A DNA stretch of 64,000 nt from Deltaproteobacteria bacterium (GTDB lineage: Bacteria; Myxococcota_A; Polyangia; HGW-17; SLPX01). Position 1 is the stretch's first letter; each line of letters opens with the position of its first letter. Under the pieces are notes generated by a model. The model worked only from the letters and a program-made list of their open reading frames with translations, searched no databases and was not told the origin of the DNA. The stretch spans positions 1 through 64,000 of the forward strand of contig JAGGXR010000014.1 of the NCBI GenBank assembly GCA_021162935.1, read 5' to 3'. The position numbers were made by a program, and so were the translations under genes. Below are positions 3,701 through 35,100 of this stretch, piece by piece.

Positions 3701-6433
3701 GCGGATGGACATCCTGGTGAAGCACATCGCTTCCTGCTGGACGCAGGTGAAATTTTAGAAGATGAGGCTGTGGACCTGGAACATGCAGAGGAGGTTTACT
3801 GGACGGCCTTCAACAAGGATCCTGCCGACCGAGAAGTGGCCGAACACCTTATCGGTGTTTTGAGAAGGGGAGACGACCGAGCGCGGGTGGCCGATGCGCT
3901 CGATGCCCACCTGACCGCCTTGCAGGAGACGGACGGCGCATCGAAAGATGACGATTGGGTTCGGGTCGTGATTGAGGAGTTGGCTCTCGTGACCGAGGTC
4001 GTGATTGGGGATCCGGCAGGTGCCTGGGCTCGCTGGAGCGACCTCCTCGATGGTGACGACGCCAGAGCACGGCGCGCCGTGTGGGCCGGATTGAGATGGG
4101 CTTTGCGTCAGGGGGATCGATCGGGGGCTGCCCTGTTCGCCGGTCGGCTCGCCGAGACCTATCCTGGATCGTTTGGTGCCGTCATGTCGTTACGGGCGGC
4201 GCTGTTTCCCACAACCAATGCCGATGGAGACCAGACGGACTGGGCCTCGTTGGGAGAACGGCTTGGAGATTTGGGGCTGACGGCGGGCGCTTTGTTGGGC
4301 CGCAGGCCTGAACAGGTGGCCGACGCCATGCTGTGGAGAGCAGGGCACCTTTCGAATCCTGCCGATGCTCAGGACGTTCGACAGGCTGCAGCGATTGCAT
4401 TGGCCAGGGTGGGACGACTGATCGATGCCGTCGATGTGGCGGGGCAGGTGGCTCAGGAATCCGACGGAGACATGGTCGTCGTGCATTTGTTGGCGACTTT
4501 GGCGTCATTGGCTGGAGACAGAGAGTCCGAGGCCGGTTTGCGGGCTCGTCTCGGGCAGCTACTGCGTGACGCGAATCGGGCTAGAGACGCCTTCGTTCGG
4601 GCTTCCGAAATCCTGGTGGGAATCGGGGCGACAGATCGTGCCCAATGGGCGCTCGAACAGGCACTGGCGCGTGTCCCCGATGATGATGATGCCTTCGAGC
4701 GGTTGTCTCGGCTTTTGTCCCAGACGGAGAAGTGGGAGGACCTGGTCCAGTTACTGAGCCATCGTCTCGCCGTTGTCCTCGACCAGGAGGAACGTGCCGA
4801 TTTGTATTTGAGGCGGGCGACTGTGTACGAGTCGAAGTTGGGCGATGAACTCAAGGCTGCCGTGGATCTGCATCGAGTTTTGAACCTACGAGCCCAGGAC
4901 AGTGTTGCGCTGCTTCGGTTGGGGCTGCTGTACGCCCGAGATGGTGACGATGACAGAGCGGAGGGCTTGCTGCGGCGGTGCATGGAAGCCGATGGTGATG
5001 GAGAGCGGTCCCAAAAGGCCGGTTTTTTCTTGGCGGAACTCTTGGAGGTTCGACTCGATCGCCGGGACGAAGCAGAGGAACTGCTTCGATCAGTGGCCGA
5101 AGCAGACAGGAACGAAGAAGCCTGGGAGCGGCTCCTTGGCCTGTATATTCGTGGCAAACAGTGGGAACAGGTCCAGTCTGTATTCGGCCGAATCGAAGAG
5201 ACGTTGGACTCCGACGGGGCGCGTGCCGATCTCCTCCTGCGCAAGGCCCGATTTTATTCTGAATTGATGGCGAATCGGGGCAAGACCATCGAGAGCCTGG
5301 AAATGGCGAGAACTCTGCTTCCTACGGATCTGCAACCGGTTCGTTTGCTGGTGCACGAGTACCGGGAAATGCATGATGATCGGGCTGTCGTGCAGGTGAT
5401 AGAATCGGCTGCCGCGACGCTCGTCCAGACGTTTGGCGACGATCCTGTGCGAGAGGGTGCATACAGAGGCCTGGCAGAACTCATGGACCTGGTCGGCCAG
5501 TCGGACCGGCGTTTTTTTGCCCTGGCGGCGCTGGAACTCCTTGGTCGGTCGTCAGAAGAAGAACATCGGTGGTACGTGGATCGGAGCAAGGATACCTTTC
5601 CTGCGACGAATCGAACCATCGACGAGCAGGACTGGCTCATCAAGGTGGTGCGGCGGGAGGTGCGCCAGAGTGGCGCCTGGGATCTGTGGCAGGCCGTTGC
5701 CTCGGGAGTGGCTCGTCTTCACGGGAAGAAGCCGTCGGATATCGGGCTGGGCCGTTCCGATCGATTGCCCATCAAGAGACTTGGAAAGGTGGGCCGACAG
5801 CTCGTTTTTCGGGCTGGGATTGTGGGCGTGACCATCGAGGACGTGTACAAGACGGGCAAGGTGGAGTGCGCCGACTTAATGGATTTTGGCGATGGTCCGG
5901 TTCTTTTGGTGGGGACGTCCGTGGAGTCCAAGGGCCTGGATGCGGCTGAATGGTTCCGTTTTGGGGGGCGGGTCGGAGCAGCCAGACTCGGAGCCCTCGA
6001 CCTGTTCGATATGGACCTCGATCGGGTGCGGTTTCTGCTGACCGCTGCAGCTCTCGAGAGTGTTCCCGATTTGGTTCATGACCTTCCGCCGGACGGCGTG
6101 GAAGCTGCGGGGCGGGAGTTGCGCAAGGCGATGACCCGGAAGGAACGCAAAGCATTGCCGGTCGCGTCGTTGAATTTTGTCCGTCGATCGTTCGATGCAG
6201 AGAAGTGGATTCAGGGGATGAAGCAGACCACACACAGAGTCGGGCTTCTGCTCTCCGGTGACCTCGAAGGAGGAGCAGGGAGTCTTTGCTCGAGTCTGGC
6301 CGGCAAGGAAGGAAACGAGCGATTGTCCGTCCTGGCGGGATGTGGTGATGCCGTGGAGTTGATGCTGTATGCTGTCTCAGCGGTCTTTGCCGAGTTGCGG
6401 AAGGACTTGGGTTTGAGTCGGGATCTCGACTAG
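728..6433 (+). CDS. Giant TPR-repeat protein with acidic repeat-rich N-terminus
   Basis: About 1901 aa. The first ~300 residues are Ser/Glu/Asp/Pro-rich and include eleven 10-residue tandem repeats (STEDAPASDP type, then IPTGEVSMDE type). Residues ~310-1650 are helical TPR-like repeats rich in paired Leu/Ala/Trp positions, suggesting a protein-binding scaffold. From residue ~1673 a non-TPR C-terminal domain starts (GLGRSDRLP) that resembles the end of the next gene. No signal peptide is seen, so it is probably cytoplasmic. The frame extends to a TTG at 686, but the ATG at 728 has AGAAGAG placed correctly and is preferred. The next gene starts 19 bases after the stop, so the two are probably cotranscribed. 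Partner and function are unknown. Confidence 0.85.
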   Translation: MDKKRTFGVEVDAGQAGANGDSEATTGTIPVREVEDAVDAQGRESGESATDVSDAGVPSGGETGGWAGGSPTDESSTEDAPASDPSTEDAPASDPSTEDAPASDPSTEDASASDPSTEDASASDPSTEDAPVSESSTEDAPVSDPSTEDAPVSEIPTGEVSMDEIPTGEVSMDEIPTGEVSIGEPSTEESGKPMAVGLLESGAESPPAEAPVASLATWEAVESQAVTSDLSISESASPSEGDAGSSAGAPQEAGAPQEAAAGGLSIAEELAEPVKSGGAPPPMPATPPLPGGAGQVVEEQIVTDVLADARARFDRSGRAYEQELFQSEIDAVEDRASKALYFYELGEINEVDLDQVNKAAKAYRQAVKLDASLLANLWAVRRILLPRKKWSNLVTLVDAELKLAASPDHRIALFLEKGAYQETYLDDQAGAELSYKKALEERPDSLVPLMRLEKLYAAMGRVDDLVAVAKRHVNVVASPGRKAAILQSLARSLGRIDGAYEDRKALLEEAIELGEEPDSLLWDMERLAIEAGRQQDLVDVLGRTVQRAIERGDEPFAVATGRRRARIAGAVLGDWDSAWDILIQLRDQADSHPILYEDLTAVGRRLGRWDELAELTGARVASRQDGVPLEWVLAHAQVLALIGREDEAADVLAALWSDTKDPVLLALRERHAIASGSISEFVAALEAWDTFLAESGVGEADPGDVARYRAGLLSVRAHFLLTEMEDDDQEKLSVILDLCQRAVDLDAECLSAAYLEEEALMRLGRWRELVDFQKSRVEHTDIVESVRLLESIADVCSNELEDQKEALWALGLLAEQSQEPILALLRLVSHLEASQNWERVASVVEKLSDTIAAPQTQAELLVRSADVVWSKRGDADEAIRLLNRTLDLVPNHGAALFLLERILFQEHRYEDLLEVFRRAAELAEDDDSVEQYLLKAGDVLASLLGRSEDAMEVYEDILARYPLRVSAPWLLVRAWRQAGVLDRLADFLVKAADGHPGEAHRFLLDAGEILEDEAVDLEHAEEVYWTAFNKDPADREVAEHLIGVLRRGDDRARVADALDAHLTALQETDGASKDDDWVRVVIEELALVTEVVIGDPAGAWARWSDLLDGDDARARRAVWAGLRWALRQGDRSGAALFAGRLAETYPGSFGAVMSLRAALFPTTNADGDQTDWASLGERLGDLGLTAGALLGRRPEQVADAMLWRAGHLSNPADAQDVRQAAAIALARVGRLIDAVDVAGQVAQESDGDMVVVHLLATLASLAGDRESEAGLRARLGQLLRDANRARDAFVRASEILVGIGATDRAQWALEQALARVPDDDDAFERLSRLLSQTEKWEDLVQLLSHRLAVVLDQEERADLYLRRATVYESKLGDELKAAVDLHRVLNLRAQDSVALLRLGLLYARDGDDDRAEGLLRRCMEADGDGERSQKAGFFLAELLEVRLDRRDEAEELLRSVAEADRNEEAWERLLGLYIRGKQWEQVQSVFGRIEETLDSDGARADLLLRKARFYSELMANRGKTIESLEMARTLLPTDLQPVRLLVHEYREMHDDRAVVQVIESAAATLVQTFGDDPVREGAYRGLAELMDLVGQSDRRFFALAALELLGRSSEEEHRWYVDRSKDTFPATNRTIDEQDWLIKVVRREVRQSGAWDLWQAVASGVARLHGKKPSDIGLGRSDRLPIKRLGKVGRQLVFRAGIVGVTIEDVYKTGKVECADLMDFGDGPVLLVGTSVESKGLDAAEWFRFGGRVGAARLGALDLFDMDLDRVRFLLTAAALESVPDLVHDLPPDGVEAAGRELRKAMTRKERKALPVASLNFVRRSFDAEKWIQGMKQTTHRVGLLLSGDLEGGAGSLCSSLAGKEGNERLSVLAGCGDAVELMLYAVSAVFAELRKDLGLSRDLD
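951..1280. repeat. Intragenic array of 11 x 30-bp tandem repeats
   Basis: Eight near-identical 30-bp units (951-1190) are followed by three units of a second 30-bp type (1191-1280). Each unit encodes 10 residues of the acidic N-terminus of the TPR protein. Few substitutions separate the units, which suggests recent expansion. Because of the repeat, several other frames also stay open across this stretch; those are not genes. Confidence 0.95.
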
Positions 6434-6452
6434 AAAGAAATGGGGGCAGGAA

Positions 6453-9400
6453 TTGTCCGACAAAGCTGGAAAAGGCAAGAACCGGGACGACAAGAAGGGG
6501 CGCGGCAAGGACGAGCGCGAGGGGGGCATCGGGGTCCAGGATTTCAGTGATGAGGAGTGGTCTTCTGCTCTCGACGACTGGGACAAGACCCTTGCGGGCC
6601 TCGTGGACGACGACAAGGACAACGCTGGAAAAGGGGCGTCGGATGCGGCGGCTGATTCTGCGGCAGCAGAATCAGGGCCTGAACAGGCCGAACAGGGAGA
6701 ACAATCCGAGACGGATGCCCCATCGGCACGAACAGAGGGAACGGAACGGTCCGAAGAAGCGCTGAAAGAAACAGCAACGCCTTTGGATTTCGATGAGACA
6801 GACGGCCTCGATCTGCCTGGCCTGGACGATGCACTGGACGCACTCGTGGGCGATTCCGTGGCGCTTGGCGGGCTTCTGGGCGGCACGATGGAGGGGCGTT
6901 CGTCAGAGCACGATGTCCAGGAGGAGGCCACCAGAATTGCGGACCTTTCCGAGGAGATCGTGTCTTTGAGCCGTCCGCAGGAGCGACTGGATCCGGAAAT
7001 GTTTTCGGACGAAGCCACCCGGCTCGCCGGTCCGGAACTTGGCATCGTCTTGGCTGAGGAGGAGGCCCAGAGACAGTCGGATGAATATGCTGAGGACGAA
7101 GAGGATTTCTATGACGTCATCGTGGTCGGGGACGAAGCGGAAGAGGGTCACGAGCAAGCATCAGGCAAGGGACAGCAGCCGGTCGTCGATGTCGAGGATG
7201 TCGTCGAGGAACGGGTCCCTGGACTTGACCAGGGAGACATCGACGAGGCCGTGGAGAACATCGAGGCCGAAGCGCCGGTTCTAAGTGCTCAGCTCGATTC
7301 GGGGTTCGAGCCGGAGCCGCGGGCCCCGGCTGCGGAGGCCGCGCCAGGTGCGGTTACGGAGATGGCGTCTGAGTCTGTGGGGGTCGGCGAAGAGGAAGAT
7401 ACGCAGGGGCCGCCGTCCGTGGAGATGATCGTGGAGCCAGCCAGCGAGGGAGAGGCTGGCGAAGAGGAAGATACGCAGGGGCCGCCGTCCGTGGAGATGG
7501 GCGTGGAGCCAGCCGGCGAGGAAGAGGCCGGCGAAGAGGAAGATACGCAGGGGCCGCGGTCCGTGGAGATGGGCGTGGAGCCAGCCGGCGAGGAAGATGC
7601 CGGCGAAGAGGAAGGTACGCAGGGGCCGCCGTCCGTGGAGATGAGTGTGGAGCCAGCCGGCGAGGGAGAGGCTGATCGTCCTTCTGGGGGCGAGTACGGG
7701 GTTGGAGTTCTGTCCGGGGCCGCATTTGGCGACCTGGACAATGGAGTGCTGGGTGTTGGGGAAGTTCCGTCTGTGGTGGAATCGGGCCTCGACAGCCTGC
7801 TGGGCCTTGGGGCCGAGGGAGGAGTTGGGATTGGTCCGGTCGGGGCTCTGAGCGATTCAGTTTTGATCGTACCATTGACCTTCACGGCCGAAGGTGGCCC
7901 AGGCGTTCTCTCGGAAGCCGAAACGTTGGCCCTGGTCTCCGAGGATGGAGAGCCCTTGTACCAGCGGGACGAGAACGTCGTGCAGTGGCAGAGCCCGAGT
8001 CACGAGGGTGACTGGAATGGCGAGGTCGAACTCCTGGTCTGGCGGGATCTTGGTGATACGCTCGCCGTGGAGGCTGCCCTTTGTGAAGAAGACCAGGAGG
8101 CTGCGCGTCTCGAGTTGGCTTGCGCTCAGGTCGCCGAATGGGCGGTGGGCGACGGTGAGGCTGCCATGGGACATTATCTGGACGCCTGCGCTCGCGAGCC
8201 GAATCTCCTGGATGCTCGTTGGGGGGCCGTGCGTGCCTATCTGATGTCGGGTGACCTGGGTGGCGTGGCGGAGCAATTGGAGTCGCTGTCGAATTCGGCA
8301 CATCCAGAGTCGTTCGAGCGAAGCTTTGTGACTGGCCTTCGTGCTGAGTTGTCTTTGCAGGATAGCGACCACGCCACCGCGCTGGAGTATCTCAGGGAAC
8401 TGGGAGGATCGCAGTCCGTTCAATTTTGGAAGCTGCTTGGTGAGCACGACGTGGCCGCTGCGTCTGGGGATCATTCCTTCGTGGCGGACCGTCTGGAGAC
8501 CATGGCGTTGCAGCAGTCCCTCGATGAGGGAGGTGCGGAACTCCTGTATCTGTCTGCGGAGTTGCGTCGTGTCTTGGGAGAAGGCGAGAAGGCCGTGGAC
8601 TGTTACGACAAGGTCCTGCAGGCGGAGTCTTCTCCTCGGCTCCGTCGAGATGCGCATCATGGAAAATTCGTGGTACTCGAGCGGCAGGAACGCTGGTCGG
8701 ACCTGGAAGAAGTGTTCGGACGTCTTGCCGACGTGGCCGAGGGTTCAGAGTCCGATTGGTGGCGGATACGGCGGACCAAGCTGTTGGCGCGGCTGGGTCG
8801 CGTATCGGAATCACTGGATGTGCTTTCGGGATTGCAGGAGCCGGATCGGTTCGTTTCGCTCCGGGCGAGGATGTACGAAGCCGCAGGGCGCGCGGACGAG
8901 GCAGTCGCATTGTTGAAGGAAGCAGCGGATCGGGAACAGGATTCCACGGAACGGGCACAGCTGCTGTTCCATGCAGGTCGTGTTGCCGAGGATGGCCTGG
9001 GAGCTGGGCCGGCTGCAGCGACCCTGTACCGCGAGGCTGCTCGGATGGATCCTGGGGTCCGGGCTGCGGATCTGGGCGTGTGTCGCTGTCTCATGGCCGT
9101 TGAATCGGATCGAGCACCTGGACTGGATTTGTTGGCCTGGGCAGCGGACAGGAGGGCTGCTTCCAAAGGAGGGGCTTTGTTCGATGCCTGGAGGGCCAGG
9201 GAGCTATGGGCGCTTGGGCGACTGGACGAGGCCTGGCAGACCATGGAGCAGGGAATCGATGGACAACCGAATTCCCTCGCTCTCGTCATCGAAGTGATTG
9301 CCCATGCCACGGGATCCGACGATGACAAGGCTATGGGGCTCCTGCGTCAGGTGGTCGAGCAGGGCCATGGGCCGACACAGTTGGTTGCAGAGTGGAAGCT

Positions 9401-15942: not shown

Positions 15943-17813
15943 TGTTCTTTGGACGATCGGCGCTGGAATTCCTGCTCCACCAGGTGCTGGAGCGATGTGA
16001 GGTCAAAGGGCTTTGTGACGATTTTTGCCCCGAAATCGTTTCGGATCGACGGCAGGATGGGAGCGGTCGGGTCACCGGTGACGATGATGAACGAAACGTC
16101 TCCGTGATCCTGCGCTCTGGTGAATAGTTCGTAGACGTCCAGTCCGGGCACGGTGACATCGGACATGATCAGGTCGAACGGACCATGGTGCTCCACCATG
16201 CCATAGGCGACTGGTCCGCTGTTCGCCAGGATCACCTCATAGCCCATTCCTTCCATCAGGGCCTTGATGAGTTCGAGGATGGATGGTTCGTCCTCGACCA
16301 CGAGGATCCTCGGTGGGCTGGTCCGTTTCTCTCGTTCTTCGTCCGAGTCTCCGTCTGCGGGCAGGAGGATGCGGAAACGGCTTCCTCGGGGCAGCTTGTT
16401 TTCTGCAGTGACCGTGCCGCCGTGTGCGGCGACGATGGTGTAGACCACGCTCAGCCCCAGACCCGTGCCTTTGCCACTGGGCTTCGTGGTGAAAAATGGA
16501 TCGAAGATGCGGGGGATGTCTCTGGATTCGATGCCAGGGCCGGTGTCCTCGATGCACAGCTCCAAGGAGTCACCGCGTTGCCTCGTAATGATGGTGACCC
16601 TGCGTGGAGAGGCGACCTGCTTGACCGCGTATAGGCCGTTGTTGAAGAGATTGAGGAGAACCTGACGGAGTTGATTGGCGTCGCCCGAAACAGTGGGGAG
16701 ATGATCGTCTAGGTTCAACTCGATTTCCACGTCTTCGGAGGAGATGTGGTGGCGTTGGACTGCGAGAAGGTCCGTGATGATCCGGTTCATGTCCACGGCT
16801 TCGTGTTCCGTGGGCTGCCATCTCGTCAGGTCGAGCAGATTCATGACAATCTTTCGACTGCGTTCCGCTTCCGCGATGATGACTTCTTCGATGCGCCGAC
16901 GTTCCTCGGGCCGTTGTTCGACCTTGAGTAATTGGCTGTAGCCTAGGACCGACGTGAGCGGGTTGTTGAGCTCATGAGCCACGCTTGTCGCCAGTTCGCC
17001 TATGGCTGCCAATTTTTCGGTGACCTCCAGTTGGCTGGCGTGGGCCTGTTGGTCGTCGAGGTGCCGCATGATGAGGACTGTGTGTTCCGCCACAGGGGCG
17101 ACGATGGAACGGATCGGCGAACAGGTGAGCTTTACGTCCACGTTGGATGGATGCTGCCGGAACTCGAAGACCATGGTTTTTCGATGCTGCACAGCCTTTT
17201 CAATTTGGGTCTGCAGGGCATCGTTTTTCGGCAGGAACAGATCGTGGAAGCTTTTGCCGATGAGGTCGGAAAAGGGCATGCCCAGGTTGTCCGCGACGGC
17301 CCGGTTCGCCCGTACGACTTGGACGTTCTGATCCACGATGAGAACCATGTCTTGGATGGCGTCGAAGGCGCTTTCCCACTGCTCCTTGGCCGCAGCGACG
17401 GCCTCGGACCAACGGTGCATTTTCATGCTGGCCGTTGTGCTCTGTGGCTGGAGTTCGATGAGGAGCATCCAGTCGTCCTGGTCATGGATCCGGCGCATCC
17501 GCATCATCAGCGGTTGTTGGATGGCGAGAGCATGTCCATTTTCCATGGTTTCCTGGATCTGGATGACGCCCATCCCTTCCCAAGTGTCAGCGATGCTGTC
17601 GAGATCGTCCAGGTCCACGTGCCGACTGGTTTTGTGAAACAACTCCGTGACGCGTTTTCCCTCCAGGTGCTTCCTCCCTTCGGACAGGATGCGTCCCGCC
17701 CCTCTCGATGCGGTGAGGATCACACCCTTTCGGTCACAGAGAAGCACTGCGGATGTGAGTACTTCCACCACGGCACGCAGGATGGCTCGTTCGTCTTGTG
17801 TCGATTCATTCAT
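15939..17813 (-). CDS. Hybrid histidine kinase: PAS-PAS-HisKA-HATPase-receiver
   Basis: 624 aa. Residues ~5-125 and ~140-255 look like two PAS sensor domains (ILRAVVEVLTSAVLLCDRKG; AFDAIQDMVLIVDQNVQVVR). The phospho-acceptor His (~280) lies in ATSVAHELNNPLTSVLGYSQ. The ATPase domain has the N box LLNLFNNGLYAV, EDTGPGIE and GKGTGLGLSVVYTIV. A C-terminal receiver (~505-620) starts RILVVEDEPSILELI with phospho-acceptor Asp ~552 in LIMSDVTVPG. No membrane helices, so it senses a cytoplasmic signal. Phosphate may pass to its own receiver and on to other regulators. Overlap with the DMT transporter gene suggests the transporter responds to the same signal. Confidence 0.9.
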   Translation of the reverse strand: MNESTQDERAILRAVVEVLTSAVLLCDRKGVILTASRGAGRILSEGRKHLEGKRVTELFHKTSRHVDLDDLDSIADTWEGMGVIQIQETMENGHALAIQQPLMMRMRRIHDQDDWMLLIELQPQSTTASMKMHRWSEAVAAAKEQWESAFDAIQDMVLIVDQNVQVVRANRAVADNLGMPFSDLIGKSFHDLFLPKNDALQTQIEKAVQHRKTMVFEFRQHPSNVDVKLTCSPIRSIVAPVAEHTVLIMRHLDDQQAHASQLEVTEKLAAIGELATSVAHELNNPLTSVLGYSQLLKVEQRPEERRRIEEVIIAEAERSRKIVMNLLDLTRWQPTEHEAVDMNRIITDLLAVQRHHISSEDVEIELNLDDHLPTVSGDANQLRQVLLNLFNNGLYAVKQVASPRRVTIITRQRGDSLELCIEDTGPGIESRDIPRIFDPFFTTKPSGKGTGLGLSVVYTIVAAHGGTVTAENKLPRGSRFRILLPADGDSDEEREKRTSPPRILVVEDEPSILELIKALMEGMGYEVILANSGPVAYGMVEHHGPFDLIMSDVTVPGLDVYELFTRAQDHGDVSFIIVTGDPTAPILPSIRNDFGAKIVTKPFDLTSLQHLVEQEFQRRSSKEQ

Positions 17814-26024: not shown

Positions 26025-26141
26025 TTGCGGCCTGTCGTCGTTGATGGCATGTTCCCCCTGGTCATCTTTCCGGGAATCGCAGTGGCGACTCCATCCGGGT
26101 GGGCGTTGGCCCATGTTCGTTGGATGGACGATGCTTCATGA
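26025..26141 (+). CDS. Possible 38-aa leader peptide upstream of ECF S component
   Basis: A TTG at 26025 lies ten bases after a perfect AGGAGG (26009-26014). The frame encodes 38 residues (starting MRPVVVDGMFPLVIFPGIAV) and ends in a TGA that overlaps an ATG (ATGA at 26138). That ATG opens only 11 codons. The peptide is moderately hydrophobic with no known family. It could be a regulatory leader, a small membrane peptide, or chance. The strong ribosome site is the main support. Confidence 0.3.
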   Translation: MRPVVVDGMFPLVIFPGIAVATPSGWALAHVRWMDDAS

Positions 26142-26159
26142 GTGTGATTTCGTCTGTCG

Positions 26160-26705
26160 ATGGCAGCGCGTGAGGTGGTTGATTCGACGATGCAATATGA
26201 CCCCAAAGAGCTTGCCTACGGCGGTTTGTTCGGCGCCGCAGCACTGACCCTGCCCATCGTGTTTCACGCGGTGCATCTCGGACATGTGTTCATGCCCATG
26301 TACTTTCCCCTGATGACGCTGCCGTTTCTCGTGGGGCCGAAGATTGCGGCGACCACGGCGCTGGTCATCCCTATTTTTTCCGGGTTGGTCACTGGTATGC
26401 CGCCCTTCTATCCTCCGATCGCTTTGTTTATGTCGGCGGAGCTGACCATGATGGCCGCCGTGGCGTCCTGGTGGTACCATCGTCGGGAGACGAAGGTGAT
26501 CGTGGTCCTGGTTTCCGTGCTTTTGTTGGGGCGGGTCATGTCCGCCGTGACGGGATACCTGCTTGGACTCGTCCTGGATCTGCCTGCCAAGTTCACGTCC
26601 GTCATGTCCGTGGTGAGTGGCTGGCCGGGCGTCGTTTTGATGGTAGTGGGTATTCCGCCCCTTTTGCGGTTGATGAGCGAAGGTCGAACCGGAGAGCCGG
26701 ACTGA
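26160..26705 (+). CDS. ECF transporter S (substrate-binding) component, unknown substrate
   Basis: 181 aa with about five to six membrane helices. The pattern FHAVHLGHVFMPMYFP, then GPKIAATTALVIPIFSGLVT and GMPPFYPP followed by an acidic helix (MSAELTMM) is like S components of energy-coupling-factor vitamin/metal transporters. It is not CbiM-like (no MHI start). Downstream are the T and A components, giving a complete transporter. The true start may be the GTG at 26175 or ATG at 26190 (GAGGTG upstream) rather than 26160, which has no ribosome site. The His-rich first loop could bind a metal complex, but substrate is not known. Confidence 0.65.
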   Translation: MAAREVVDSTMQYDPKELAYGGLFGAAALTLPIVFHAVHLGHVFMPMYFPLMTLPFLVGPKIAATTALVIPIFSGLVTGMPPFYPPIALFMSAELTMMAAVASWWYHRRETKVIVVLVSVLLLGRVMSAVTGYLLGLVLDLPAKFTSVMSVVSGWPGVVLMVVGIPPLLRLMSEGRTGEPD

Positions 26706-26798
26706 AATGGTCACGGTCGCCTGTTGCAAAGGGCTCCATGACCGCGGACGCCTCGGGTAATCGAAAATCTGGTGATCGCTTTTGGAGTGGAGCAGATT

Positions 26799-27401
26799 AT
26801 GGAACGGAGAGCCTATTTCAACTCTGTGTCGGACCAATGGGACGACTGGAACCGGGAGGCGGACATGCTGCCGCGTCTCGAACGGGACCTCCATGGTTTC
26901 GGGATCAGGCGCGGCGAACGGGTCCTCGATCTCGGCTGCGGCACGGGGATTCTTTTTGAACCGTTGCTTGATCGCGTCGGCCCGGAAGGCATGGTCGAAG
27001 GAGTGGACTACGCCCGTTTTATGGTCGAACGCGCTGCGGGTAAACATTCGGATGCCCGTCTGGCCGGTCACGTGGCAGATGCCGCATTTTTGCCCTTTCG
27101 AGATGGATCCGTCGATCGGATCGTGTGTTTTTCCACCTGGCCGCATTTCCCCGATCCACAAGCGGTCTTGGTCGAGGCGCATCGGGTGCTGCGTCCTGCT
27201 GGTATTTTGCATGTGTGGCACGTGGATGGCCGGGATCGGATCAATGCGATTCATCGGGACCTCGGCGGCGCAGTGGGAACAGACCTGTTGGTTCCAGCCG
27301 CCCTGTTGGCGGCGAAAGCGACTCGGGTTGGTTTCGAGCCGCTGGTCGTGCTCGACGAAGACGATAGGTATCTGGTGTCCCTTCGGCGATCACGAATGTG
27401 A
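26799..27401 (+). CDS. Class I SAM-dependent methyltransferase
   Basis: About 200 aa. Residues ~35-150 show the Rossmann-fold methyltransferase motifs: motif I VLDLGCGTGILFEPL, acidic motif II VEGVDYA, and the post-motif AAFLPFRDGSVDRIVC, then EAHRVLRPAGILHVWH. It resembles COG2226-type enzymes (quinone, sterol and metalloid methylases), whose substrates vary. The ATG at 26799 has GGAG six bases upstream and is preferred to GTG 26772. It lies between the S and T genes of the ECF transporter, so its substrate is probably linked to the imported compound. That link is an inference. Confidence 0.8.
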   Translation: MERRAYFNSVSDQWDDWNREADMLPRLERDLHGFGIRRGERVLDLGCGTGILFEPLLDRVGPEGMVEGVDYARFMVERAAGKHSDARLAGHVADAAFLPFRDGSVDRIVCFSTWPHFPDPQAVLVEAHRVLRPAGILHVWHVDGRDRINAIHRDLGGAVGTDLLVPAALLAAKATRVGFEPLVVLDEDDRYLVSLRRSRM

Positions 27402-27476
27402 TGGGTTAGAAGTTCCTGTCGGGACCGTTGAAGATGTTTCTTACGCCGTGGTTCGGCGGACGGAAGGATGCTGCTC

Positions 27477-28244
27477 ATGCGAGGCCATGGTGCCTGGATG
27501 CAATGGGGGATGACCGACGGGTTTCTGTCTCGACTGGACCCGACGGTTCGGATGCTCTGCATTCTGTCGTTTCTTTCTGCCGCCTTGATCGTGCGCCCGA
27601 TACACCTGGCCGGCGGCTGCTTCGTGGCCGGTCTCTCCATCGTCGCAGCGGTGGCATCGGGGATGTCCCTTCGGCGTTTCATGCAGATCTTGGCCGTCGG
27701 AGCCGTGGTTTTTGCACCCGCCTTTTTGCTCACGCCCTGGTTGACGGGGGGAGCGCCGCTTTTCGAGATTCCCGTCCTGGGCTGGGTGACCAGTCGTGGC
27801 CTGGATATCGCCGCCACGATTGTGGTGCGCGGCCAGGTCGCCCTGTTGCTCGGATCGGTGCTCGCCGCCTCTTTGGATGCCACGGATTTGGCCCTTGGTC
27901 TGAAACGGCTGCCCATTCCCCATATCGTCGTGGTCATGGTGCTGCAGGTGGGGCGCTGGGTGGCCGTGTTGCTGGCCGAGACGCGCGGGATCAGTCAGGC
28001 CATTGCCCTGCGTGGGGCGGGCCGTGGATTGTCGGGTGGTTGGCTCGTGCTGGCGAATGTGCCCCTGGTCTGGGTGCCGAGGGTGACCGCGCGGGCGCGC
28101 CGCGTCGCTTCAGCCATGGAGGTTCGCGGCTACGGCGGGGAGCTGCCAAGGGCATCGCTTGCCAGACCGGGCCTCGTCGATGCGAGTTCCGTGGCCGTTG
28201 CCCTTTTGGTTTTGGCGGGAGCCATTGTGATACGGATGCGGTGA
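27477..28244 (+). CDS. ECF transporter T component (CbiQ/EcfT family)
   Basis: About 255 aa, start chosen at ATG 27477 nine bases after GGAAGG; an in-frame ATG at 27468 abuts that site. It has about five membrane helices and, in the cytoplasmic part, the two paired Ala-x-x-x-Arg-Gly coupling motifs (AIALRGAG and AMEVRGYG) that contact the ATPase grooves in EcfT/CbiQ proteins. The order S, methyltransferase, T, A and the single direction support one operon. Overall length matches the family. Confidence 0.85.
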   Translation: MRGHGAWMQWGMTDGFLSRLDPTVRMLCILSFLSAALIVRPIHLAGGCFVAGLSIVAAVASGMSLRRFMQILAVGAVVFAPAFLLTPWLTGGAPLFEIPVLGWVTSRGLDIAATIVVRGQVALLLGSVLAASLDATDLALGLKRLPIPHIVVVMVLQVGRWVAVLLAETRGISQAIALRGAGRGLSGGWLVLANVPLVWVPRVTARARRVASAMEVRGYGGELPRASLARPGLVDASSVAVALLVLAGAIVIRMR

Positions 28245-28275
28245 TGCTCGGTCGTGCGGCCGTCGTGCTGAACAG

Positions 28276-28330
28276 GCGGCCATTGCAGTGATCACGCGAC
28301 CATTGCCGTGACGTGCGACCGTCGCAATCG
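28276..28330. repeat. Imperfect ~20-bp tandem repeats between T and A genes
   Basis: GCGGCCATTGCAGTGATCAC is followed by a 19-bp and a 16-bp imperfect copy (starts 28276, 28296 and 28315). It lies in the short gap before the ATPase gene and seems non-coding. Confidence 0.55.
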
Positions 28331-28341
28331 AGGACGTGGTG

Positions 28342-29079
28342 ATGTCTGTGCTCGAAGTGGAAAACCTGTTGGTTCGGTATCCTGGCGCCGATCGCCCCGC
28401 CCTGGATGGGGTGCAACTCGACGTGGCGCCCAACGAGCGGGTGGCCCTCGTGGGACCCAACGCGAGTGGCAAGACGACCCTGCTGCACGCCCTGGTTGGG
28501 CTCGTTCCCTTGGAGGGACGGGTGACCATCGACGGCGTTGCCTTGAGTAAGGCCTCGCGGGCACAGGTGCGCAGCCGCGTCGGTTTCCTTTTTGCTGTGG
28601 CCGACGATCAGATCCTTTTTCCCCGCGTGATCGACGATGTCCTGTTCGCCCTGCGTCGACTGGATCACGGCGACGCGGAACGCAAGGCCAGACACGTGCT
28701 GGCTCGATTGGGCGTGTCCGACCTGGAGGAGCGTTCCCCTCATCATCTCAGCCTGGGACAGCGCAAGCGAGTGGCCCTGGCCGGTGCTCTGGTTGCCGAG
28801 CCGCCCCTGCTCCTTCTCGACGAACCCAGCGGTGGGCTCGACCCAAGGGGCACGGCGGACCTTGCCTCCCTCCTCGCCGAGGTGCCCTGTGCCATGCTCA
28901 TGGCGAGTCACAATTTGGATTTCGTCTGCCGCGTGTGCAGTCGGGTGCTCCTGATTGACCAAGGCCGTGTCGTCGGACAAGAAGTCGTGGGGCGGTCCGA
29001 GGTGGACCAGGAGGCTGCCAAGGATCGCCTCCTCCAATGGATGCTCGGCTCGGGGCCGACGCCAGGTCGAATTGCGTGA
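28342..29079 (+). CDS. ECF transporter A component (CbiO/EcfA-type ATPase)
   Basis: About 245 aa. The ABC ATPase motifs are complete: Walker A GPNASGKTT (~40-48), Q loop FAVADDQILFP, signature LSLGQRKRVALAGAL, Walker B LLLLDEPSGGLDP and switch His ASHNLDF. Only one ATPase is encoded here, so it probably forms a homodimer as in CbiO systems. The ATG at 28342 follows AGGA (28331-28334). It is the last gene of the transporter operon and faces the convergent TonB-receptor operon across 26 bases. Confidence 0.9.
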   Translation: MSVLEVENLLVRYPGADRPALDGVQLDVAPNERVALVGPNASGKTTLLHALVGLVPLEGRVTIDGVALSKASRAQVRSRVGFLFAVADDQILFPRVIDDVLFALRRLDHGDAERKARHVLARLGVSDLEERSPHHLSLGQRKRVALAGALVAEPPLLLLDEPSGGLDPRGTADLASLLAEVPCAMLMASHNLDFVCRVCSRVLLIDQGRVVGQEVVGRSEVDQEAAKDRLLQWMLGSGPTPGRIA

Positions 29080-29084
29080 TCACA

Positions 29085-29098
29085 GGTCCGTTCGGACC
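29085..29098. terminator. Short perfect hairpin between convergent operons
   Basis: GGTCCG, TT, CGGACC form a perfect 6-bp stem in the 26-bp gap between the CbiO-type ATPase and the TonB receptor stops. No T tract follows on either strand, so a bidirectional terminator role is only suggested by position. Confidence 0.35.
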
Positions 29099-29105
29099 GT
29101 GGATG

Positions 29106-31178
29106 TTATTCAAACCGGAGGGCCAGACCCGCCAGAATCGTGATTCCGGGAATGGGGTAGTCTTTGATGTAGGCGTTCTTTCGGTTCAGGAGATTCTGGA
29201 TGACGAGGTAGGGCTCGAAGCTGTATGTGGCTCCGTCGGGTCGATAGCGGTCCGAGATCCTCATGTTCAGGAAGAACACGTCCGGAATGGGGTCTCGATG
29301 GTAGTTGGACATGTAGAGTCCGTGGACCCATTCTCCCGACAGGGATCCTGCAATTTGGTGGGAGCCAAAGCCGTGGTGGGCCTGCAGACTGAAGTTCAAT
29401 TTAGCGTCAGGGTTCTGTTTCGTATATCGGCCCAGGTTCTGCCAGTTTCCCGTGACGAAGCAGCGCATGGGGCCGAGCCCATCGAGTACGAGCTTTGCCT
29501 CCACACCCCAGATGACCATCTGATCGATGTTGACCACTTCGGCGGTGGGCCAGGATCCGAAATATTTGATCATGTTTGTGATGTCGCTTCGATATCCGGT
29601 TACCGAGAATAGGACGTGGGGTAGGATGACCGTGGCCCCCGCATCCCAGTTGAGGGCGTATTCGGGTTTGAGGTCCGGATTTGCCGTGGGGAAAGGGAGG
29701 TACAGTTCTCGGATGGTGGGCTGCCGGAAGTTTTTGGTCACGCGCGATCGAAGACGCAGCCATCGAAGGACCCGCCAGGTGATGCCTCCTTTGAACAGGA
29801 ACACGAACCCGTATCGGCTGCTGAGCAGTTCTCTGGACCCGGCCACGAGATCGAGGCTGGGGTGAGGGTGCCAGGTGAGTTGATGGTAGAACGAAAACGT
29901 CGCCACCCCAGGGATCATCTGGTTGGTGCGATCGATGCGGTTTTCCACCTGGCCGTCTCCCCATTCCACGGCCGCTCCAGTGATGGCGTGCAGGCCGTGG
30001 GGCAGCCTCACCGATGCGTTGGCATCGTGCCCCAGGACGTAGTCCGTGGAGTAGAATCCGTCGTAGAGGCGATGGACGCCCACGTTGAGATATGGGGTGA
30101 AGGTGAGGCGCCAGCGATGCACATCCAGGACGAATCGTAACGAACTCGTGTTGCGCCACACATCGTACCAGTGATTGAGGTACGGATGGCTCGCCGGGCC
30201 GGGGTCTCCTCCCTTGAGATGGACGATCCGGTCCCGGGTCGTCAGTGACATGGTCGAGCCGAATCGGTAGCGCCCCGCCACCTGGGAGACGAAGTTTTTG
30301 CCTCCGGCACCGGCCCGATGGCCGTCCGTGCCAAGGAAGCTCACCGAAGTGGCCAGGTCCCATCGATTCCAATGTCCGAGCAGAGCAGCGGCTTCACGCA
30401 TGGTTTGGAAGCTTCCGTAGGACGCATCATTGAAGAGTTCGAGCCCATTGTGATTGCGCCAACGATTTCGGATGACGATCACGCCGCCCATGGCGTTCGT
30501 GCCGTACAGGACCGAGTCGCCTCCCTTGACCACCGTGACGTCGCGGACCAGCAATGGAACGTACGCGTCGGGAATGGGGTGACCGAAGATTCCTTGGTAG
30601 TCCGGTACCCCGTCTTCGACCACCAGCACCTGCGCGTTCGGACTTCCTCCGAATCCCCGGATATGGATGGCGCCCGATGCGCCGTTCGCGATACCGTGGA
30701 TCCCCATTCCCCGACTGTTCACGTACACATCGCCGGCCTGACCGGCCAGGGCTTCTAGCATGCTCGACCGGGCGCTGTGTCGCAGAGTTTTGCCCTGCAC
30801 GTAAGTCTGGTCCGACGTGCGATCCTCTTTGGTGGCTTCAGCGTTCGCCACCACGACCGATTCGTAATGGGGACAGGCTCTATGGTGGTCGCAACGGCTC
30901 GATTTCGGTTTCGTCGATCGACCTTGATTCTGCTTTCGGCTCGCGTGAGCCTTTCGGCTCGTGAGGCGTTTGCGGTTCGTTGCCTGCTTGCCCGGTTGCT
31001 CGGACCCGGTTTCGGATCTGCTCGGGGCTCGTTCTGCCGCCTCCGCATGTCCGGCTGCGATGAGGTACAGGAAGGCGATACAAACCATGTGTCTTCGTGT
31101 CGATGTTTTCAGGACGAGCCACGGCTCCTCGACACGCTCAGACGACCAGGGATACGATTGAGACGCATGGGGCATCAT
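29106..31178 (-). CDS. TonB-dependent outer-membrane receptor
   Basis: About 690 aa. A hydrophobic signal segment (VCIAFLYLIAAGHAEA) is followed by a Ser/Arg/Lys-rich linker. The plug domain comes next (TLRHSARSSMLEALAGQAGD, GIHGIANGASGAIHIRGFGG, QVLVVEDGVPDYQGIFGHPI, GGDSVLYGTNAMGGVIVIRN). A ~450-residue barrel ends in AGLALRFE. The layout matches TonB-dependent importers for siderophores, cobalamin or other metal complexes; BtuB-like size. The start is uncertain: ATG 31178 lies four bases after the stop of the upstream lipoprotein gene, while ATG 31088 would give a shorter signal peptide. It is convergent with the ECF transporter and probably supplies the same compound (inference). Confidence 0.85.
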   Translation of the reverse strand: MMPHASQSYPWSSERVEEPWLVLKTSTRRHMVCIAFLYLIAAGHAEAAERAPSRSETGSEQPGKQATNRKRLTSRKAHASRKQNQGRSTKPKSSRCDHHRACPHYESVVVANAEATKEDRTSDQTYVQGKTLRHSARSSMLEALAGQAGDVYVNSRGMGIHGIANGASGAIHIRGFGGSPNAQVLVVEDGVPDYQGIFGHPIPDAYVPLLVRDVTVVKGGDSVLYGTNAMGGVIVIRNRWRNHNGLELFNDASYGSFQTMREAAALLGHWNRWDLATSVSFLGTDGHRAGAGGKNFVSQVAGRYRFGSTMSLTTRDRIVHLKGGDPGPASHPYLNHWYDVWRNTSSLRFVLDVHRWRLTFTPYLNVGVHRLYDGFYSTDYVLGHDANASVRLPHGLHAITGAAVEWGDGQVENRIDRTNQMIPGVATFSFYHQLTWHPHPSLDLVAGSRELLSSRYGFVFLFKGGITWRVLRWLRLRSRVTKNFRQPTIRELYLPFPTANPDLKPEYALNWDAGATVILPHVLFSVTGYRSDITNMIKYFGSWPTAEVVNIDQMVIWGVEAKLVLDGLGPMRCFVTGNWQNLGRYTKQNPDAKLNFSLQAHHGFGSHQIAGSLSGEWVHGLYMSNYHRDPIPDVFFLNMRISDRYRPDGATYSFEPYLVIQNLLNRKNAYIKDYPIPGITILAGLALRFE

Positions 31179-31182
31179 GGTC

Positions 31183-31698
31183 TCAATGGCCGTAGGGTCC
31201 TGGGACACCGAAGTCCTGCTCCATGTCGTCCGAAACGATTTCGAATCGATAGAAGCCGGGGCCCTCGGCGCGTTTGATAGAAATGGATTGATAGTTGAAC
31301 CATAGGGGCGTCTCGTCGATGAGACCATCGTCCACGGGGCTGCGGGCGATCGGCTTTCCGCCGTCACAGAGGCAGAGCCCGTCGAGCGTGCCATCGGCTG
31401 CCTGTTCCTTACAATATTCCTCGACGTCGAACTTCTTGAAATGCACGTGGTCCGAACCAGGGATGCAGCGCTGCGGAGAAGTGGCCTCGCCATAGGCGAG
31501 CACCTGGTCCCACCTGCAGCCCTGGAAGCTGATACCTCGGATCAGGATCCGTTCGCCGGTCATGTTGACCACGACCACCTCGGGTTCGATCTCTTCGCAG
31601 CTCGTTATGGCCGGTGCGGACGCGGCGACGAGGATGAGCAGTGCGAGGCTGATGCGTGAAGGCCAGCCGGCAGCTCGTCCCATGGTTTTTGCGATCAC
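31183..31698 (-). CDS. Lipoprotein of unknown function
   Basis: About 171 aa. GTG start at 31698 with AAAGGA nine bases upstream. A hydrophobic stretch (ISLALLILVAASAPA) precedes the lipobox ITSC, so it is membrane-anchored. The mature part has several Cys (e.g. CKEQAADGTLDGLCLCDGG) and beta-rich stretches. No family is recognised. The stop lies four bases before the TonB receptor ATG, and the preceding gene is another small lipoprotein, so all three form one operon. A surface or periplasmic helper for receptor-mediated uptake is a reasonable guess. Confidence 0.7.
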   Translation of the reverse strand: MIAKTMGRAAGWPSRISLALLILVAASAPAITSCEEIEPEVVVVNMTGERILIRGISFQGCRWDQVLAYGEATSPQRCIPGSDHVHFKKFDVEEYCKEQAADGTLDGLCLCDGGKPIARSPVDDGLIDETPLWFNYQSISIKRAEGPGFYRFEIVSDDMEQDFGVPGPYGH

Positions 31699-31760
31699 GG
31701 GGCGGTCCTTTCGTTTGCTGCCGAGAGGCAGTGACCAGGCCCGAAAGGTTTCGTTTCGGA

Positions 31761-32276
31761 TCAGTTGGACTGGCATTGCGGGTTTTGGGTGCGCTGGTCG
31801 TATGGTTTGAACCCATATTCGGGCCAGAGCTGACGGATGCGCTCATATTGTTCTTCTGGAATCGGAGGCACGCCCTCGGGCGGACAGGGACCCTGATGGT
31901 TCGCCAGGTTGATGGCAATGGTCCGGTGCTGGCCGTCTACCACTTCCTCTTCGTTTTTGGACGCGATGGGCAGACAATGTTCGGGATGGCAGTCCGGATC
32001 GTCCCAGGCCGCCACCATCAGGACGTAGTCCAGGCCTGGTTCCACTTCCATTTCCTCGCTCGTGTCCCCGATGGCGATGGGGCCGAAATTGACCCCCATG
32101 TACGACACCTTGCAGATGGTCCAGGGAGGCTGGAAGTTCATCTCGGGGTTGTTGAAGTCGTTCTTGATCGACACGTATGCAGTTCCGATGTTGCTGTCGT
32201 CGCCGCAGGCTTGAACCGTGAGTCCGAGAGCGAGGGCCCATATCAACGTGACTGTTCTCAGAGCAGCTTGTCTCAT
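31761..32276 (-). CDS. Lipoprotein of unknown function
   Basis: About 171 aa. The ATG at 32276 follows AGGAGACAACCGA. The signal peptide (MRQAALRTVTLIWALALGLT) ends in the lipobox VQAC, giving a lipid-anchored protein. The mature part has a beta-rich middle with paired Cys and His (DDPDCHPEHCLP) that could bind a metal. No family recognised. It heads the operon with the next lipoprotein and the TonB receptor. Its promoter should lie in the divergent gap 32277-32478, but none is clear. Confidence 0.7.
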   Translation of the reverse strand: MRQAALRTVTLIWALALGLTVQACGDDSNIGTAYVSIKNDFNNPEMNFQPPWTICKVSYMGVNFGPIAIGDTSEEMEVEPGLDYVLMVAAWDDPDCHPEHCLPIASKNEEEVVDGQHRTIAINLANHQGPCPPEGVPPIPEEQYERIRQLWPEYGFKPYDQRTQNPQCQSN

Positions 32277-32478
32277 TCGGTTGTCTCCTTTTTCCGAAGC
32301 GTACGACCAAAATTTTGTATCGGATGGCGGTATTACGTTTTGACGGATTCGTACTATTCTGGCCATGCTGAGTCAATGATTATGTGTGTGTTGCGGCTGA
32401 TTGAAGAAAGGAGGGATTGTGCTCCTGTTGAGCCGCGTCGTGGGTTGTGGTATGGCACGGACCTGTCAGGAGGTGGAC

Positions 32479-32907
32479 ATGTCGCACAAGACGGTGAGGA
32501 TCTTCGGTGGCCTGGACTTTCTGTTCGGTTGGCTTTACCTGCTCATTTTCATTTACGCGGTGCCTTCGTTCGACCCGACGGTCAGGATTTTGACCTACGT
32601 GGGCTCCATTGCGATTATCGTGGCGGGAGCAGTCATGCTGGCCGGCGGTCGCGTCGGTTACTGGGTGGGCGTGGGGGTTGCTGGGTTTCTGCTTCTTCTT
32701 TGCTTCGCGTTGGTGGCGATGCTCGTGGCGGCAGCGGCCTATTTGTACGGGCTCTACGGCGCATTCGGCAAGGGAGCCACCTACGTGACCCTGTTCGGGA
32801 TTTCTTTGGTGGTGGCCTATATCGGGCTGCTGCCCATTTTTCAGATGGCCTACTTGCTCCGGCGTGAGGTGCGAACCTCGTATCGCCGTGCGACCGGGGA
32901 GGCCTGA
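32479..32907 (+). CDS. Small integral membrane protein
   Basis: About 142 aa. The ATG at 32479 follows AGGAGG. Four hydrophobic helices fill most of the length (e.g. LYLLIFIYAVPSF, AIIVAGAVMLAGG, VAGFLLLLCFALVAMLVAAA, LFGISLVVAYIGLL). It ends in a basic tail (RREVRTSYRRATGEA). No family is recognised. Three bases separate it from the large barrel-type protein downstream, so they are probably coupled. Confidence 0.7.
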   Translation: MSHKTVRIFGGLDFLFGWLYLLIFIYAVPSFDPTVRILTYVGSIAIIVAGAVMLAGGRVGYWVGVGVAGFLLLLCFALVAMLVAAAAYLYGLYGAFGKGATYVTLFGISLVVAYIGLLPIFQMAYLLRREVRTSYRRATGEA

Positions 32908-32910
32908 CCC

Positions 32911-35100
32911 ATGGCTGCGAGGATGCCGCTGCGGTGGAAGGTGACCCTGGCCGTCGGGATTCCGGGCGTCCTGCTTTGGGTCCTCTGGTCGGCGGTGGTC
33001 GGATGGGTGGCCCTCGACCCGGTGCAAGGGATTGGGCCTGGCGCACGGTATTGGGTGATCGAGAGCCTGCGCGCCACGTCGGAGGGCCGGACTCGGCCTT
33101 CTGTGCCGGCCGGAACGGTGGGCAGGGATCTTGCCCGGCGGTTTCCCGGCCCGGTGTTCGTGACGCTCTACCTGAGAGGCCGAGTGATTTTTCGGTTCGT
33201 GTCCAAGCCGCGACAGCCTTTGTCTCGCGTGGTGGCCGATGCCTGTCGGTCGCTTGGCGCCGATGCATCGGTCCGTTCTCTGTCGACCGAGGACCGACGG
33301 GCGAGTCGCTTCAAGGTGGACCTGACCTTGGCCCAGGGGCCGATCCTGACGAAACCGCGTTTGCTGCTGGCCCTGTCCGTGGTGCCCGGGTTGGACGGCA
33401 TCGGACTCAGAACCGCATCCGGGCGGGTCGCGTACATGGCTCCCGACGAGTTGCTTCGGCGGAACTTGGTGACTGGCTATCGGCCCTTCAAGTTCGTCAA
33501 GGAGTTCAAGGCAGGCCTGCATGTGGGGGCCGTGGCCGGAATTTTGGCGCGCAGGGCCCAGGTGGAGCGGTCGGGCAAAGACGCGTTGCCGCCCGGTCGG
33601 CTTTTTCGTTTTCGGACTCAAGGTTTCGTCGAGGCGCCCTGGGTCGAGACGGGCAAGGGGAGCATCCTCATTGCGTCGGGCCGGGAGCAGGAAGGCGCGG
33701 ACGCCGGCAGTGGCGCCTCCGATGTGGCAATCGGTCAGGGAGGGGGGGCAGGCGGCGTCCGGGATGACACTGCGTCGCGGAATGAGGAGGGCCGAAGGGG
33801 TTTGCGGCCCGGAGGTCGGAAGGGGCCGATGGTCGTGGTTCGGGGCAACACGCCGCCGCCGCGGTTCAACCGGAGGTCAGTGCTTGCGGCCTGCGTTCGA
33901 GGCGGCCGTTACATGCTGCGCATGTTGGCGAAAAAGCCGGTGGTGCTCGACACGCACCTGATTCGAGAGCCAAATGGGAGGCTCCGTCCGTACACGGAGC
34001 AGGAGTTGCTCCCTGGCGAACGTCTGGTCCGCAGGCCGTCGAGGCTCCTGCGCGGACAGTTCGGGTACATCTACTATCCATTGACGAACGATTACACGAC
34101 CGGCGGGTACAGCCTGCCCAGGCATGCGGGCGCCGCCTACGGTTTGGCTGTCTTGGCCGGGCTGCTGCGGCCTTTCCCGTCGGTGCCTCGCTGGCAGGTT
34201 GAGGCGTTTCGCAAGGGCGCGGCTTTGTCCATCGAATACCTGGCGGAACGGGTGCGCAAAGGGCGTTGCCGTGGTCCGGACTTTACCTGCGTGTCTTTCG
34301 GGAGCGTGACGGACTTGGGGTCCACGGCTCTGCCCGTGGTCGCCATCATGGAGTATGTGCGGATGACGGGCGACCGTCGGTTCTTGGATCTGGGCCGCCG
34401 GATGTCGAACTTCTTGTTGTTCATGCAGCGAGGCGATGGCGAGTTTTGTCACATCTACGACGTGGCGCACAATCGCAAGGACTGCAAGACCACCCTCCTG
34501 TACTATTCGGGCGAGGCGACCCTGGCCCTGGCGCTTGCCTACAAGGTGTTCAAGGACCCGAGGTATCTCAAGGCGGCCGAAGCCGGACTCGACTATCAGA
34601 CAGGGCAGTACCTGGCTCCGTTGACCATGAAGTTTTTGTACGGCGAGGATCACTGGACCGCGATCGCAGCGCACGAGGTTTGGCCCTTCCTCAAGAAGAA
34701 ACGCTACGCTCAGTTCGCTTATGGATTTGCGGATTTTCAGCAGCGACAGCAGTTCGTCCAGGGCGAGGCATTCGACGACTACGTGGGAGGGTACGGGATC
34801 ACCCCGTTTTTCCCACCCCACCTGACCCCAGCCGGATCTCGAACCGAGGCGGCCGTGGCGGCCTATCGCCTCAGCGTGGCCAGGGGCGAGCGTCGGAGAG
34901 ACATTCTGCATCAGATCAGGCGGGCGTTCAGTTACATCGTTCGGCATCAGGTTCGGCCGGAGAACAGCTACATGTTCGTCGATCCGGCCATGGCGGACGG
35001 AGCGGTGCGAAAGAGCCCTGTCAAATTCGACGTGCGGATCGATTACGTGCAGCACACGGTCGTGGCCATGTTGCGTGGCCTGGACCTGGTACCGAAATAG
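32911..35100 (+). CDS. Membrane-anchored protein: AMMECR1-like region plus (alpha/alpha)-barrel domain
   Basis: 729 aa. A single N-terminal helix (VTLAVGIPGVLLWVLWSAVV) anchors it. Residues ~60-210 contain FVTLYLRGRVIFRFV, PLSRVVADACRSLG and VPGLDGIGLRT, spaced as in AMMECR1-fold domains, though similarity is distant. A Gly/Arg-rich linker follows (~240-300). Residues ~370-729 have repeated helical pairs, EYVRMTGDRRFLDLGRRMSN, GEFCHIYDVAHNRKDC, YYSGEATLALALAY and a final HTVVAMLRGLDL, as in glycan-processing (alpha/alpha)6 barrels. No exact family is assigned. The enzyme or carbohydrate role is inference. The gene follows the small membrane protein and precedes purD by 57 bases. Confidence 0.65.
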   Translation: MAARMPLRWKVTLAVGIPGVLLWVLWSAVVGWVALDPVQGIGPGARYWVIESLRATSEGRTRPSVPAGTVGRDLARRFPGPVFVTLYLRGRVIFRFVSKPRQPLSRVVADACRSLGADASVRSLSTEDRRASRFKVDLTLAQGPILTKPRLLLALSVVPGLDGIGLRTASGRVAYMAPDELLRRNLVTGYRPFKFVKEFKAGLHVGAVAGILARRAQVERSGKDALPPGRLFRFRTQGFVEAPWVETGKGSILIASGREQEGADAGSGASDVAIGQGGGAGGVRDDTASRNEEGRRGLRPGGRKGPMVVVRGNTPPPRFNRRSVLAACVRGGRYMLRMLAKKPVVLDTHLIREPNGRLRPYTEQELLPGERLVRRPSRLLRGQFGYIYYPLTNDYTTGGYSLPRHAGAAYGLAVLAGLLRPFPSVPRWQVEAFRKGAALSIEYLAERVRKGRCRGPDFTCVSFGSVTDLGSTALPVVAIMEYVRMTGDRRFLDLGRRMSNFLLFMQRGDGEFCHIYDVAHNRKDCKTTLLYYSGEATLALALAYKVFKDPRYLKAAEAGLDYQTGQYLAPLTMKFLYGEDHWTAIAAHEVWPFLKKKRYAQFAYGFADFQQRQQFVQGEAFDDYVGGYGITPFFPPHLTPAGSRTEAAVAAYRLSVARGERRRDILHQIRRAFSYIVRHQVRPENSYMFVDPAMADGAVRKSPVKFDVRIDYVQHTVVAMLRGLDLVPK

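Follow-up and report, generated by a model that had tools for sequence, protein, structure and literature searches.

The gene set described here most probably forms a NikR-controlled nickel importer that reaches across both membranes, with an inferred chelate route. Its link to nickel is well supported by the gene context, namely nikR, the NikR operator and LarC; that the locus acts in transport, and carries Ni(II) as a chelate and not in bare form, we infer. The initial annotation had proposed a joint uptake locus for one metal complex or cofactor precursor. The first part of this proposal is supported and can be narrowed to nickel by nikR, the operator and LarC, and neither a riboswitch nor a biosynthesis gene speaks for a cofactor precursor.

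In the window, i.e. the whole analysed stretch of 64,000 nucleotides, all seven genes are present and intact between 26160 and 32276:

26190-26705, plus strand, S component of the energy-coupling factor (ECF) transporter; the reading frame is open from 26160, relatives favour the start at 26190 as the likelier one
26799-27401, plus strand, class I SAM methyltransferase (MTase), UbiE/RebM-like (domain search, model, invariant residues)
27468-28244, plus strand, ECF T component, CbiQ family (Pfam CbiQ, 73 bits)
28342-29079, plus strand, ECF A component, a CbiO-like ATPase encoded by a single gene (Pfam ABC_tran, 101 bits)
29080-29105, intergenic gap of exactly 26 bases between the A gene and the stop codon of the receptor gene
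29106-31088, minus strand, TonB-dependent outer-membrane receptor (plug and barrel domain matches)
31183-31683, minus strand, lipoprotein 2 (ITSC lipobox, by eye)
31761-32276, minus strand, lipoprotein 1 (VQAC lipobox, by eye)
32330-32357, weak NikR-box candidate GTATTAC-N14-GTACTAT, 54 bp before lipoprotein 1 (10/14 positions)

The genes for S, MTase, T and A thus stand together on the plus strand as first described, and the S, T and A components are encoded together, T and A being recognised by Pfam and S by its fold. The 26-base gap between the two facing blocks was confirmed as well. The face-to-face arrangement itself is limited to a few spirochaetes and the window, other loci having their genes in one operon. 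The window contains a rearranged copy, in which the receptor block has the opposite orientation to the usual one. Beyond lipoprotein 1, a gene for a small membrane protein (32401-32907) adjoins one for a 729-residue protein (32911-35100) with at most a weak C5-epimerase-like match and no named family.

The same gene order was looked for with the S sequence in related genomes and 84,980 species, which gave 36 loci besides the window (two pairs are duplicates). A profile search added loci in Spirochaetota and Acidobacteriota, and after removal of duplicates 56 distinct loci, the window counted in, were compared. They span Myxococcota, Acidobacteriota/Aminicenantes, Spirochaetota, Verrucomicrobiota, Bacteroidota and Ignavibacteria, and the gene set recurs in several of these phyla with a co-occurrence far beyond chance. 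In Myxococcota (e.g. L012, L014, L020, L021, L062) a single co-directional operon has the order lipoprotein 1-lipoprotein 2-receptor-S-MTase-T-A; in Aminicenantes/Acidobacteria, Akkermansiaceae, Ignavibacteria and Bacteroidota the order is receptor-S-MTase-T-A. The spirochaete T gene is too divergent for the T profile, and a membrane protein of about 220 residues is found in its place. A locus from the window's own family (L165) runs from lipoprotein 1 and lipoprotein 2 to the receptor and then directly to the MTase before the contig ends. The window copy is orthologous to the other loci, as its sequence and its genes show. No S relative was found in the plasmid collection.

It had been reasoned that a wide occurrence of S without its partners would speak against a joint locus. 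The MTase is present in 55 of the 56 loci, adjoining S in 54 and lying 5 kb off in L060; the only locus without it is L016, where S sits at the contig edge. The receptor is the less constant partner, being absent from several loci (L118, L124-L129, L137, L138, L142), and the core is therefore S-MTase-T-A, to which the receptor and the lipoproteins are optional additions. The gene set may be previously undescribed: no description was found in the literature searched, and subscription papers lay mostly outside it, so that an earlier account is possible. Beside four operons of different phyla (L026 4050-6985, L012 2190-5323, L034 3048-5987, L137 3709-5801) a barrel-like protein without a Pfam match is encoded, which ends in GAHxAH in L012 and L026; a ZnuA-like gene occurs in all four of these loci and an ABC-3 gene in L026, L012 and L034.

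The assignment to nickel comes from the surroundings of these operons. In 12 loci from Verrucomicrobiota, Myxococcota, Bacteroidota and Acidobacteriota/Aminicenantes (L013, L014, L017, L022, L023, L031, L032, L035, L137, L138, L143, L144) nikR lies within 10 kb of the operon. NikR was found in 47 of 51 genomes with S (10/11, 16/17 and 21/23) versus 49 of 173 without it (Fisher p=7e-17, the genomes being related and their independence thus overstated); no NikR was found in the genome of L012. The delta-proteobacterial consensus of the NikR operator, GTGTTAC-[N13/14]-GTAACAC, is known from upstream of nickel transporter operons (PMC545781), and the dyad GTGTTAC-N13-GTAACAC upstream of our loci equals it. 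When 45 loci (667 kb) were scanned for sites with at least 12 of 14 matches, 16 of the 20 sites fell into the 300 bp upstream of operon genes, a zone of 25.6 kb or 3.8% (p=9e-20). Two of the four remaining sites (L013, L025) also lie at a receptor start, and in total 16 to 18 loci have an operator in front. The match is perfect (14/14) in L025, L026, L028, L031, L032, L033 and L035. Boxes with GTAGCAC or GTGGCAC halves occur in the Myxococcota loci L012, L020 and L062, which suggests that the operator drifts there. A perfect NikR box was also seen at 17562-17588 in the spirochaete contig L147, about 8 kb from a weak relative of S.

Nickel-related genes point in the same direction. CbiM/NikM is absent from 28 of 32 carriers tested (8/11 Myxococcota, 20/21 others), so that the S component looks like a replacement of NikM. 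A NiFe-hydrogenase family was found in 10 of 11 carriers versus 56 of 133, matches that can include fragments. LarC is the nickel-inserting enzyme of the nickel-pincer cofactor. In L060 it is encoded directly upstream of the MTase gene (TIGR00299, 214 bits, cut-off 90), in an insertion between S and MTase (4686-9379) that also holds an NADH-dependent [FeFe] hydrogenase (group A6) with NuoE/NuoF-like partners. LarC and the [FeFe] hydrogenase were found in the operon of L060 only and are not general members of it. L060 thus has a nickel-free hydrogenase inside a probable nickel-starvation operon; NikR control of an Fe-only hydrogenase was predicted earlier (PMC545781).

The upstream operator of NikR-regulated nickel uptake systems is present for the family; in the window copy itself, the box at 32330-32357, with its 10 of 14 positions, has about ten equally good matches in the 64 kb and is weak alone; its position is similar to that of the boxes in L061 (13/14) and L021 (12/14). 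No NikR box was found before the window S. The genome encodes NikR and a hydrogenase-family match; nikR is located on another contig, and no nickel genes were seen next to it. This genome is an exception among the carriers since it keeps a second, NikM-type ECF operon (contig C140, L072 6866-11215) composed of a NicO-family gene, CbiM with a PDGLE domain, CbiQ and CbiO, with GTAACAC-N14-GTAACAC upstream at 11209.

The view that the S component is not CbiM-like was borne out: neither the window S nor any of the 35 members matches Pfam CbiM (PF01891), the N-termini differ in having no N-terminal Met-His, and a CbiM/NikM-like S was therefore rejected. Comparison with the known S families in Pfam and NCBIfam placed it in none that is named. 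PF12822 is matched by 23 of the 35 members (best E 3.9e-8), the window S remaining below threshold with 15.9 bits against a cut-off of 30.7. The only NCBIfam model to appear, TIGR04518 (folate family), did so in three members (best E 0.0015), and none exceeded the curated cut-off of a named vitamin family (FolT, ThiT and others in NCBIfam). On these sequence grounds the S component is a new ECF S family. Its sequence hit no solved structure at E 1; the closest solved folds to its AlphaFold model (pLDDT 89.8) are TmRibU, ThiT and FolT with TM about 0.65 and E values of 1e-3 and weaker.

A His-containing first loop, FHAVHLGHVF, had been pointed out in S. It is present at residues 35-44 (counted from the 26160 start), and of its histidines only the first, H36, is invariant in 35 relatives. 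The invariant residues of this loop are F35, H36, P46, M47 and P50, and a second cluster reads TGMPP-x2-PP (78-86, including T78-G-M-P-P82). The invariant His and Met residues might contact the metal or the chelate, which is only a suggestion. TGMP is also kept in L147, a weak S relative without nickel context, and is therefore not a nickel signature; such weak relatives (44-74 bits) lack an MTase and were left out of the comparison as members of other S families.

On the side of the outer membrane, a putative TonB box (ESVVVA) precedes the plug of the receptor. Both lipoproteins show a signal peptide with a lipobox Cys by eye. In Myxococcota lipoprotein 1 conserves four further Cys and an NHQG motif. 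Lipoprotein 2 ends with EQDF-x2-PGP(Y/F)GH, i.e. with a C-terminal His, in the window (31183-31200) and all relatives seen.

In its fold, the MTase model (pLDDT 93.9) is close to UbiE/UbiG, RebM and other small-molecule enzymes of this kind. Its SAM motif, D-x-G-C-G-x-G, is intact with D44, G46, C47, G48 and G50 invariant, as are H116, H141, H152 and D162 in 33 members. When the MTase is aligned with RebM, H116 falls on the second His of LHHMPD and H141 on D166, positions which we take to be catalytic; together with the invariant SAM motif this points to an active enzyme. The closest NCBIfam model, NF045667 (DVU_1556 family), gave 69 bits for the window MTase, below the cut-off of 155 bits, and membership in that family was rejected. 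Relatives of the MTase also occur without S beside importers of other classes. In L164 one is accompanied by a FecCD-like permease (by eye), an ATPase and a Peripla_BP_2 binding protein, hence a FecBCD-type system. ZnuABC-type genes surround it in L186 (receptor, ZnuA-like protein, ATPase, ABC-3-like permease, MTase, TonB-like protein, nikR) and L187 (ZnuA-like, ABC-3-like, ATPase, MTase), several of these names being given by eye. At the start of the operon, both L164 and L186 carry a NikR box with 11/14 matches. The importers that the MTase accompanies are of three unrelated classes, and its target should therefore be the cargo and not the transporter. The limits of the family are soft: most operon members score higher than the 129-185 bits of these outside relatives, and in one Bacteroidota genome a relative with 150 bits stands beside no metal-transport gene.

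For the NikR-controlled importer the following route may be proposed. The two lipoproteins and the receptor would bring a nickel chelate across the outer membrane, S would bind nickel or the chelate, and the T/A module would drive the passage through the inner membrane. In the cytoplasm, the MTase would then transfer a methyl group to the carrier, an organic molecule, or to some other small compound of the pathway. Ni(II), unlike iron, cannot be freed by reduction. Methylation of the carrier would most plausibly lower its affinity and release the redox-inert Ni(II), as alkylation of a donor atom of the chelator would free the metal. That a Ni(II) chelate is opened by methylation after import, and that one MTase family serves ECF, FecBCD-type and ZnuABC-type importers in this way, is a tentative proposal that is less likely than not. 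If true, methyl-driven release would be the counterpart, for a redox-inert metal, of the reductive release of iron from siderophores. Apart from this, the gene set provides an unnamed ECF S family with a predicted substrate, indicates a likely replacement of NikM across several phyla and suggests that the MTase regularly accompanies nickel import. With this enzyme the release of chelated nickel in the cytoplasm would become testable.

A second, rather unlikely possibility is that the importer is still specific for nickel but that the MTase helps to make a nickelophore which the cell itself secretes, or a nickel cofactor close to, for instance, the nickel-pincer nucleotide. Metallophore loci often carry tailoring enzymes, and LarC stands directly upstream of the MTase gene in L060. 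However, LarC is found in one locus only, and the annotated operon neighbours include no recognisable LarB, LarE, exporter or enzyme of chelator synthesis. Less likely than such a biosynthetic step is a cytoplasmic nickel acceptor or chaperone that uses the invariant His and Asp, with methylation secondary or lost. The invariance of H116, H141, H152 and D162 would fit this improbable role, but the SAM motif is invariant too, H116 and H141 align with presumably catalytic RebM positions, and the relatives in L164, L186 and L187 lack D162.

As to the metal, an importer for zinc or divalent metals in general under NikR-like proteins has a small probability. It would be in line with ZnuA/ABC-3 genes near L012, L026, L034 and L137, with the MTase relatives beside ZnuABC-type genes in L186 and L187, and with a case discussed earlier (PMC3087415), in which the NikR homologue encoded beside a ZnuABC cluster may respond to zinc. 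Against zinc stand LarC in the operon of L060, the apparent replacement of NikM and an operator that is the one published upstream of nickel transporter operons (PMC545781). Import of cobalt, cobalamin or another vitamin is very unlikely, although it would agree with the CbiQ/CbiO-like T and A components, with a fold that S shares with vitamin-binding S components such as RibU, and with weak matches of the receptor to those for heme and B12. The association with NikR argues against it. Rfam matched no riboswitch, whether for cobalamin, another vitamin or other ligands, in the window or beside the operons of the 17 loci examined; riboswitch control was rejected. SAM riboswitches were seen in L030 (3044-3160) and L037 (4060-4176), in each case roughly 3 kb ahead of the receptor gene and on the other strand.

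Among known systems, the nickel importer proposed here is similar to NikMNQO/NikKMLQO in its ECF architecture, its CbiQ- and CbiO-like T and A components and the NikR operator upstream (PMC545781, PMC2667541). It differs in an S component that is not CbiM/NikM, has a RibU/ThiT-like fold and lacks the N-terminal Met-His motif, in the absence of NikN, NikK and NikL, and in the addition of the MTase and usually a TonB receptor. With FrpB4, FecA3, NikH and CntO it has in common a TonB receptor in a NikR-linked uptake locus; here the receptor comes with an ECF transporter and, in Myxococcota, with two unique lipoproteins as well. We know of no methyltransferase in the Niu system. The MTase relative of L164 neighbours an importer of the same FecBCD-type class as NiuBDE of H. 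pylori, a proven nickel importer (PMC5140060). For the ECF transporter LhaSTA, uptake of a metal complex has likewise been reported, but its substrate is heme and its host Gram-positive (PMC7299338). Finally, the MTase shares with RebM/UbiE-type enzymes the fold, the SAM motif and H116 and H141 at the presumed active-site positions of RebM, and is set apart from them by the family-specific H152 in an H-x3-R-x6-H stretch and by its linkage to metal importers.
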